Shown here piece by piece: positions 47,833 through 50,837 of a stretch of DNA of 64,000 nt (within the stretch, counting starts at the first letter, position 1; each line of letters begins with the position of its first letter). Source of the DNA: Candidatus Eisenbergiella stercoravium (GTDB lineage Bacteria; Bacillota; Clostridia; Lachnospirales; Lachnospiraceae); NCBI GenBank assembly GCA_019113175.1, contig DXHY01000011.1:1-64000 (forward strand), read 5' to 3'. Under the pieces are notes generated by a model. That model saw only the letters and a program-made list of their open reading frames with translations, did no database searches and was not told the origin of the DNA. The position numbers and the translations under genes were made by a program.

Positions 47833-47994
47833 ATGGCATGGCTTAACATTTTGACAGGTACACGTAACAAATAGCCGCTTGCCGTCATCGTTATTTTGTT
47901 ATATGATGAATGTAGTTGAAAGCGGTTGCGCCTGCCTGGCCGCAGCTGCTGAATGGCAACAGAACCGGAATGGATGAGTAAAGGAGAAGGGATT

Positions 47995-49164
47995 ATGGAA
48001 ATGAAAGAAAAAGTACTGCAGAAATTCGGGGAGGTGTTCGGAGATACCGAAGGGGTAAAGACCTATTTCGCGCCCGGACGCGTTAACCTGATCGGCGAAC
48101 ATACGGACTATAACGGCGGGCATGTATTCCCCTGTGCGCTTACCATCGGAACCTACGGCGCGGCAAGAAAGAGAGAGGATCGGAAGCTTCGCTTTTACTC
48201 CATGAATTTTGAGCATCTCGGCGTGATTGAGAGCAGTCTGGATAACCTGACCCCTGAGAAGAAGGCTGACTGGACAAACTATCCCAAGGGTGTGATGTGG
48301 GCCTTTGAAAAGAGGGATATGAAGATCCCGTACGGCATGGATCTTCTCCTGTGCGGCAACATTCCCAACGGCTCCGGACTTTCTTCCTCAGCGTCTCTGG
48401 AGGTGCTGACCGGCTTTATCCTGCGTGACATGTTCGGCTTTGATGTGACCAATCAGGATCTGGCGCTGATCGGCCAGTATTCCGAGAATAATTTTAACGG
48501 CGTTAACTGCGGAATCATGGATCAGTTCGCCATTGCGATGGGTAAAAAGGATCATGCCATTTTCCTTGATACTGCGGACCTGAGCTATGAGTATGCTCCT
48601 ATCCATCTGGAAGGCGCCAAGATCGTTATCGCCTGCAGCAATAAAAAGCGCGGCCTCGGCGATTCCAAATACAATGAGAGAAGAAGCGAGTGCGAAACGG
48701 CTCTGGCAGAGCTTCAGGAAGTGATCGGCATTAAGAGCCTGGGCGATCTGACCGAGGAGCAGTTCGAGCAGTATAAGAGCGCCATCAAGGATGATGTCCG
48801 CAGAAAGCGCGCAAAGCATGCTGTTTATGAAAACCAGCGCACCATCAAGGCGGTTGCCGCGCTGAAAGCCAACGACATCGCCCAGTTCGGACAGCTCATG
48901 AACGCTTCCCACGTATCCCTCCGCGACGATTATGAAGTGACCGGTATCGAGCTGGATACTCTGGTGGAGGAAGCCTGGAAGGTGGACGGCGTGATCGGCT
49001 CCCGCATGACCGGAGCGGGCTTCGGCGGCTGCACCGTGAGCATCGTGAAGACCGACGCCATCGACAACTTCATCGAGAAGGTCGGCGCGGAGTATCTGAA
49101 GAAGATCGGATATGCCGCTGACTTCTATGTGGTGGAGATCGGTGACGGACCGAGTGTTCTTTAA
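47995..49164 (+). CDS. galK: Galactokinase
   Basis: APGRVNLIGEHTDYNGGHVFP; GSGLSSSASLEVLTG; start 47995 with SD. Confidence 0.97.
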   Translation: MEMKEKVLQKFGEVFGDTEGVKTYFAPGRVNLIGEHTDYNGGHVFPCALTIGTYGAARKREDRKLRFYSMNFEHLGVIESSLDNLTPEKKADWTNYPKGVMWAFEKRDMKIPYGMDLLLCGNIPNGSGLSSSASLEVLTGFILRDMFGFDVTNQDLALIGQYSENNFNGVNCGIMDQFAIAMGKKDHAIFLDTADLSYEYAPIHLEGAKIVIACSNKKRGLGDSKYNERRSECETALAELQEVIGIKSLGDLTEEQFEQYKSAIKDDVRRKRAKHAVYENQRTIKAVAALKANDIAQFGQLMNASHVSLRDDYEVTGIELDTLVEEAWKVDGVIGSRMTGAGFGGCTVSIVKTDAIDNFIEKVGAEYLKKIGYAADFYVVEIGDGPSVL

Positions 49165-49313
49165 ATGGAGGAAGATTGAAAAATAAGCCCGATGGCTTAT
49201 TTTTCAACCGGTAGTTTTGCGCCGAAGCATAAAACTGCTGTGATCGCAGAGGGGAAATCACCTGCGTGATTTCCCCTCGCGGCCTCAGCAACGCTTCGGC
49301 ATGGAGGAAAAAG
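49165..49313 (+). repeat. Composite SD-linked palindromic element, copy C2 (galK-galT intergenic)
   Basis: Starts directly after galK stop with ATGGAGGAA (49165-49173), ends with ATGGAGGAA (49301-49309) as galT SD; carries three hairpins. Confidence 0.9.
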
Positions 49314-50837
49314 ATGATTCAGAACAGTATCAGAGAATTAGTGAGATATGGACTTGCCACCGGGCTGATTGAGCCGGAGGACACGATTTATACGACGAAC
49401 CGCCTGCTGGAGCTGTTCGGCCTGGATGAGCTGGAGGATGCGGATACGCCCATCACCGCGGACAGGAGCGAGGAGCCTGAGCTGGTAGCAAAGCTGGAGA
49501 GCATTCTGAAGGATATGCTGGACTATGCGGCGGACAACGGACTTCTGGAGAATAACAGCGTAGTGTACCGGGATCTGTTCGATACGAAGATTATGGGTAC
49601 CCTGGTGGCCCGCCCCAGCGAGATCATCCGCACATTCCGTGCGCATTATGCAAATTCCCCGCAGGAGGCGACCGATTACTTTTACAAATTCAGCCAGGAT
49701 ACGGACTACATCCGCCGTTACCGTGTCTGCAGGGATCAGAAATGGGTGGCGCATACCAAATACGGCGATCTGGATATCACCATTAACCTGTCCAAGCCGG
49801 AGAAGGACCCCAAGGCCATCGCTGCTGCCAGAAATGCGAAGCAGAGCGCATATCCCAAGTGCCAGCTCTGCATGGAGAACGAAGGCTATGCGGGCCGCGT
49901 AAACCATCCCGCAAGACAGAATCACAGGATTATCCCCATCACCATCAACAACAGCGCGTGGGGCTTCCAGTATTCTCCTTATGTATATTATAATGAGCAC
50001 TGCATCGTGTTCAATTCGAAGCATATTCCCATGAAGATCGAACACGATACCTTCGTGAAGCTGTTTGACTTTGTGAAGCTGTTCCCGCACTACATGCTGG
50101 GTTCCAATGCGGATCTTCCCATTGTTGGCGGTTCCATCCTGAGCCATGACCATTTCCAGGGCGGACATTACGAGTTCCCCATGGCAAAGGCCGGTGTGGA
50201 CCGGGAGTTCACGGTGAAGGGATTTGAGGATGTGAAGGCGGGCGTGGTGAACTGGCCCATGTCGGTTATCCGCCTGAACGGACCCGACAGTGACCGGATC
50301 ATCGCTCTGGCGGATGTGATTCTGGAGAAATGGCGCGGCTATACGGATGAGGCGGCTTTTATCTATGCGGAAACGGATGGAGAGCCCCATAACACCATTA
50401 CCCCCATCGCCAGAAAGCGCGGAGACAATTATGAGCTGGATCTGGTGCTTCGCAACAACATCACTACTGAAGAGCATCCTCTGGGTGTATATCATCCCCA
50501 TGCAAAGCTGCATCACATCAAGAAGGAGAACATCGGCCTGATCGAAGTGATGGGCCTTGCGGTACTTCCTTCCCGTCTGGACGGCGAGATGGCGGATCTG
50601 GAAAAGGCCATCCTTTCCGGCGCGGACATCCGCAGCGATGAGGTGCTTTCCAAGCATGCGGACTGGGTAGAGGAATTCCTTCCCAGGTATGAAAATGTGA
50701 ACGCGGACAATATCCATGAAATCATCCAGAAGGAAATCGGTCAGGTGTTCATGGAGGTTTTGGAGGATGCCGGCGTATACAAGAGAACCGAAGATGGCCA
50801 GGCAGCGTTTGACAGATTTATCGCCACGCTGGGATAA
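49314..50837 (+). CDS. galT: Galactose-1-phosphate uridylyltransferase (Firmicute-type)
   Basis: PKCQLCMENEGYAGRVNHPARQNHRIIPI; GGSILSHDHFQGGHYEFPM. Confidence 0.96.
   Translation: MIQNSIRELVRYGLATGLIEPEDTIYTTNRLLELFGLDELEDADTPITADRSEEPELVAKLESILKDMLDYAADNGLLENNSVVYRDLFDTKIMGTLVARPSEIIRTFRAHYANSPQEATDYFYKFSQDTDYIRRYRVCRDQKWVAHTKYGDLDITINLSKPEKDPKAIAAARNAKQSAYPKCQLCMENEGYAGRVNHPARQNHRIIPITINNSAWGFQYSPYVYYNEHCIVFNSKHIPMKIEHDTFVKLFDFVKLFPHYMLGSNADLPIVGGSILSHDHFQGGHYEFPMAKAGVDREFTVKGFEDVKAGVVNWPMSVIRLNGPDSDRIIALADVILEKWRGYTDEAAFIYAETDGEPHNTITPIARKRGDNYELDLVLRNNITTEEHPLGVYHPHAKLHHIKKENIGLIEVMGLAVLPSRLDGEMADLEKAILSGADIRSDEVLSKHADWVEEFLPRYENVNADNIHEIIQKEIGQVFMEVLEDAGVYKRTEDGQAAFDRFIATLG

Follow-up and report, generated by a model that had tools for sequence, protein, structure and literature searches.

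DDE-type MITEs, RUP-like repeats among them, have terminal inverted repeats (TIRs), duplicate their target site and can insert either way round. IS200/IS605-derived PATEs and REP/RAYT carry subterminal hairpins, and their insertion is orientation-specific, directed by a short motif and leaving no clear duplication; we know of no case in which IS200/IS605-derived elements or REP/RAYT target the interval between a Shine-Dalgarno sequence (SD) and a start codon. Pneumococcal BOX repeats, composed of boxA, boxB and boxC, have TIRs resembling ISSpn2 and disrupt some genes, according to the portion of the BOX account used here (Croucher et al., 2011, PMC3049150). The element described below, about 140 bases long, rich in hairpins and present in dozens of copies in its genome, occupies the galK-galT junction in the window (the whole stretch of 64,000 nucleotides analysed). 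It is multicopy and polymorphic in its insertion, lies in one orientation and in a fixed register, and has its own SD and a covarying structure.

The galK-galT copy and its family

All features of the galK-galT locus lie on the plus strand. The galactokinase gene galK (47953-49164; NCBIfam NF003705, E 1.6e-182) ends in TAA at 49162-49164 and is followed directly by ATGGAGGAA (49165-49173), which reads as the original SD of galT, left upstream of the insertion. The element then begins with hairpin 1 (GATTGAAAAATAAGCC CGAT GGCTTATTTTTCAACC, 49174-49209), whose helix shows compensatory changes, and continues with hairpin 2 (GTAGTTTTG...CATAAAACTGC, 49211-49238), which has two-sided changes across copies, and hairpin 3 (GAGGGGAAATCAC CTGC GTGATTTCCCCTC, 49249-49278), a module missing or replaced in other copies. 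The loop segment GCCGAAGC (49221-49228) is the 5' arm of a long-range pairing with which the 3' arm, GCTTCGGC (49293-49300), covaries. Directly 3' of that arm is a second ATGGAGGAA (49301-49309), the SD at the right end of the element, and AAAG separates it from the ATG at 49314 of galT (UDP-glucose--hexose-1-phosphate uridylyltransferase; translated end at 50800, stop not included; NCBIfam NF003629, E 4.8e-234). The sequence at 49165-49313 matches the order SD, hairpins, SD read by the original prediction, which had also described a second copy as the same composite lacking only the third hairpin. Indeed, the copy at 867-990 on the minus strand, upstream of a nadR-like gene (start codon 866-864; NCBIfam TIGR01526, E 6e-45), has the same ends as the galK-galT copy, and the missing hairpin 3 is the sole difference.

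Searched across the genome (4.10 Mb in 89 contigs), the composite turned out to belong to a dispersed family. A 181-base query found about 40 further copies by blastn, and a covariance model (R1) built from 27 copies (alignment A1) gave 107 matches among the best 150 candidates scored, equal to at least about 75 distinct places, the surplus coming from hairpin 1, whose palindrome also matches in antisense. Because many draft contigs end inside a copy, as C13, C16, C19, C27, C61, C79 and C81 do in this draft (G000), the copies are probably undercounted and any longer autonomous version under-represented; a search for an autonomous version among the half elements gave hairpin-reduced forms only. 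Congeners with the element have 43-144 covariance-model matches each, apart from G011 with 17, and three others (G001, G003 and G012) have none. The element is patchily distributed across the order: in an order-level sample it is present in 13 of 295 genomes and 9 of 130 genera from three families, one of these families being represented by a single weak match. In several copies from other genera, the left flank is again SD-led and the right end ATGGAG. In a phylum-wide sample of 398 genomes, it was found in its own genome only, and at this search sensitivity the element is confined to the order or rare outside it.

Position, register and structure of the copies

Insertion at galK-galT implied that relatives might retain an empty site, and that they would not all share the full spacer. 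Two congeners (G004 and G007) do have an empty site, with TTTAATGGAGGAAAAAGATG between the genes: they read GTTCTTTAATGGAGGAAAAAGATG where the present genome reads TTTAAATGGAGGAA-element-CATGGAGGAAAAAGATG, and their sole SD, TTTAATGGAGGAA, is the same as the left-flank SD of the occupied site. A third congener, G008, has the element at the same position. The other congeners in which both genes lie on one contig have unrelated spacers, of 100-150 nt in G005, G009, G003, G012, G001 and G011, so the junction tolerates many insertions; G006 was left out of this comparison because its two genes lie on different contigs. Joined-flank queries for 24 loci in six congeners revealed further empty sites, including L020, L025, L026, L030, L039, L041, L042 and L045. 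With spacings taken by eye, SD and start codon are about 6-10 nt apart in relatives before insertion and mostly 6 nt apart after it.

Measured against start codons, the copies are concentrated rather than scattered. In this genome and the congener G010 together, 111 of the 116 copies with sequence available to the right have an ORF start directly downstream, all in a single orientation, and the start lies within 24 nt of the right end in 63/67 and 48/49 copies, respectively. For comparison, an ORF start occurs within 24 nt of 32% of random positions, and on the other strand beyond the left end in 17/116 cases. The start codon at the right end is ATG in 85 of 87 copies. The distance from the terminal GGAG or GAGG to the start codon is exactly 6 nt in 91/109 copies (83%), against 29/167 (17%) for native GGAG-led genes at the same loci (Fisher p ~9e-29). 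On the other side, the left flank is SD-like within 13 nt in 51/67 copies here and in 46/49 in G010, its GGAG lying mostly 3-4 nt before the hairpin 1 junction. The location at SDs in the original prediction is borne out by these flanks, and what it overlooked is the fixed distance to the start codon. This register could stem from selection alone, not from the insertion mechanism.

In 17 copies, the left-flank GGAG is the right end of another copy, and such tandem arrays (L283 1501-1773, L384 505-767, also L218 and L315) have the second element 4-5 nt past the first SD; from their sequence, they look as if each copy had served as a new target. The downstream genes are unrelated, some of them essential, and include ligA and genes for a V-ATPase B subunit, a Mur ligase, Apt, a MalF-like permease and a BMC shell protein.

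The copies share an architecture of three hairpins, a covarying pairing between loop and 3' end, and a terminal C/A-ATGGAG(G). The galK-galT segment is predicted to fold at -67 kcal/mol (z = -5.7), with 0/200 dinucleotide shuffles as good. Across the aligned copies, helix cells are paired in 95% of cases, compared with 87% when shuffled and 40-56% when slid, and 17 pairs show two-sided changes; in the hairpin 1 helix, 6 of 12 pairs have compensatory changes among the 27 copies. The hairpin 2 loop and the 3' arm occur in the combinations CCGAAGC/GCTTCGG, CCGGAGC/GCTCCGG and TCGGAGC/GCTCCGA, and match at 6.19 of 7 positions versus 5.80 +- 0.06 for shuffled combinations, a difference whose significance the shuffles overstate, the subfamilies being related. 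In the predicted minimum free energy (MFE) structure of the galT copy, this long-range pairing (49221-49228 with 49293-49300) replaces hairpin 2, and a switch between two RNA states is therefore possible. Predicted SD accessibility is 0.44 for the element, 0.42 for native SDs and 0.33 for shuffled element bodies.

Hairpins behave as exchangeable cassettes, as had been proposed from the two copies in the window: hairpin 3 is missing in the nadR copy and in copies of G005, and unrelated hairpins take its place elsewhere. Half elements (L368, L369, L370, L371, L376 and L375 1412-1447) consist of hairpin 3 or hairpin 1 plus the right end only and still lie directly 5' of a start codon; L368 and L369 have a different hairpin (GGATACGAAGTATCC) where hairpin 2 would be. 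A second, smaller GC-rich hairpin (like ATGCCGCC-TGC-GGCGGCA) is often found just before SDs in these genomes, for instance in the left flanks of L009 and L013 and at L155, L162, L171 and L113, and looks like another dispersed repeat.

Source of the right-hand SD and mode of insertion

The original prediction held that insertion restores the downstream SD, and that it does so by target-site duplication. Restoration is borne out; duplication fails as a general rule. Among 87 aligned right ends, C/A-ATGGAG is followed by GTAA or ATT, and this constancy extends up to two or three bases before the start codon. The left flanks are variable, and the left and right of one copy mostly differ. The downstream SD is, judged from these alignments, the element's own conserved right end, the left flank keeping the old SD; at galK-galT the two agree, since ATGGAGGAA was the native SD to begin with. 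Matched left and right sequences score 6.13 over all copies compared with 5.18 for shuffled pairs, a comparison to which tandem copies contribute much. With tandems removed, the difference becomes marginal in this genome (4.98 versus 4.70 +- 0.13); the values for G010 are 6.71 versus 5.19 +- 0.21, an excess that probably comes from incomplete tandem removal, since the tandem filter leaks there. A limited duplication of target sequence may have occurred in some copies.

These data bear directly on the proposal that an ordinary transposase acts at SDs with a 9-10 bp target-site duplication, the right-hand SD being the duplicated target. The perfect ATGGAGGAA repeats at galK-galT, the deviant ends that match each other at L020 and, for G010, at L278, L357 and L358, and the left/right similarity above shuffled would all follow from it. 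However, native SD contexts vary far more than the right ends do, most copies (L026, L039 and L012 are examples) have unlike sequences on the left and right, and the spacing is 6 nt after insertion even where the empty site of the relative has 8-10 (L021 and L026). Furthermore, orientation is strict, and no TIRs were seen by eye at the ends (GATTGAAAAATAAGC left, GCTTCGGCATGGAGG right). We therefore regard duplication by such a transposase as distinctly improbable. A flanking direct repeat of the DDE MITE type is likewise rejected as a general feature; there are a few matching cases and a stronger signal in G010, where the tandem filter leaks.

Together, orientation, position, register and empty sites argue that the element is mobile and inserts in the SD-start interval, and we consider it highly probable that this is a short, non-coding, hairpin-rich, MITE-like element that enters this interval and brings its own SD, set at 6 nt. 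The element, presumably non-autonomous, would insert in one orientation into the spacer, with an AGG-rich motif similar to its right end as target. Its right end, a strong SD (C/A-ATGGAG-GTAA or -ATT), would come to lie 6 nt before the start codon, leaving the former SD stranded upstream; translation of the downstream gene would pass to the element-borne SD, and the element would become a structured leader between two operon genes. Tandem arrays would arise because the right end resembles the target, each copy offering a new one. Insertions that break translation would be purged, and selection would keep those with a usable SD-start spacing, while hairpins and loop-to-end pairing may serve mobility, SD exposure or both. 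We infer that translation is driven by the element-borne SD, and the unrelated downstream genes, including ligA and that of a Mur ligase, argue for its being functional in the cell. It is simpler to read the register as the result of an SD-only target followed by selection; that the element recognises the SD jointly with the start codon, for instance by way of the mRNA or the initiating ribosome, and substitutes its own SD is in our judgement unlikely.

The same insertion model with the enzyme named would make this a non-autonomous single-strand element (HUH/Y1, IS200/IS605- or REP-like), mobilised by a TnpA, that inserts 3' of a GGAG-like motif with no duplication and is cleaved on the right at a target-like site. 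The hairpins at either end, the strict orientation, the lack of TIRs by eye and a GGAGGTAA-like motif common to left flank and right end agree with this version, which we hold possible yet somewhat doubtful, as PF01797 (Y1_Tnp) has no match in this genome, in the element-rich G002, G004, G005, G006 and G007 or in G011, and is present in the element-free G001, G003 and G012. A retroelement that invades mRNA where translation starts, a reverse transcriptase (RT) then copying it back, would account for the SD/start-codon register, and it would be consistent with the sense orientation, the conservation of the RNA structure, the constrained position with respect to SD as well as start codon, and the RT genes of several carriers; against it, RVT_1 has no match in the carriers G313, G166 and G031, and Rfam recognises no catalytic RNA domain, which makes it quite unlikely. 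Beside the RT genes examined, no R1 match was found except two tandem copies in L384. More generally, no mobilising enzyme was found, and neither IS200/IS605 transposases nor RTs track the element in these drafts, in which a Y1 transposase or RT could be missed; missing from several carriers, Y1 transposases are rejected as a universal mobiliser, as are RTs, given the three carriers without RVT_1. An ancestral, non-mobile cis-regulatory leader of the riboswitch or r-protein kind, lost in some relatives, would share the structured 5'-leader position, the SD at the end and the pairing close to it, but the downstream genes are unrelated, presence is lineage-specific with short native spacers in relatives, copies form tandem arrays and no Rfam cis-regulator matches the element; we give this explanation hardly any credence.

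If the insertion model is right, a very disruptive non-coding target would be made nearly neutral because the element brings the ribosome-binding site it displaces, and a selfish element could live inside operons and before essential genes. Genes, even essential ones, apparently take the insertion and stay translated. Dozens of genes per genome would share one structured leader, altering the spacing and possibly the coupling of operons within the genus, and the many natural before/after pairs would lend themselves to studying leader structure versus translation. The element also points to the existence of an enzyme that mobilises it.

Relation to described repeats

No Rfam family matches the element, T-box and SRP RNA being the only hits elsewhere in the loci. 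The TD-2 RNA (RF03162) scores 46.8, 44.4 and 42.2 bits, below its gathering threshold of 48.7, and in the two copies checked the match is antisense to the gene, hairpins 3-2-1 of the element being matched in reverse complement. Paired TD-2-like hairpins in Treponema (L194-L199; L196, L200 and L201 from Treponema putidum), without an SD and start codon, share with the element, in reverse complement, a TGAAAA stem and the order of a GAGTTTT hairpin. The score under gathering, the opposite strand and the lack, in the pattern-matched Treponema putidum copies, of an SD followed by a start codon in the corresponding position led us to reject TD-2 as the same family.

Like DDE-type MITEs, the element is a small, non-autonomous, dispersed repeat, but it has one orientation and no general target-site duplication. 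Its hairpins and orientation fit PATEs and REP/RAYT, with cleavage points blurred in the A-rich flanks; unlike in those systems, a Y1 transposase does not track it here. A literature search returned BOX-like repeats, none of them placed between SD and start codon. By analogy, pneumococcal BOX repeats are the closest kind among those compared, being short, non-coding repeats of modular hairpins that reach high copy numbers, are transcribed as leaders and occur patchily across relatives, as far as the portion of the BOX account used here goes (PMC3049150). Modularity of the BOX type is found here too (hairpin 3 missing or replaced, half elements), the likeness being one of architecture alone. 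Within the same portion of that account (PMC3049150), a fixed SD-start position and an element-borne SD are not described for BOX, and relative to BOX as described there, what is new in the present element is the SD that it bears and its register to the start codon.
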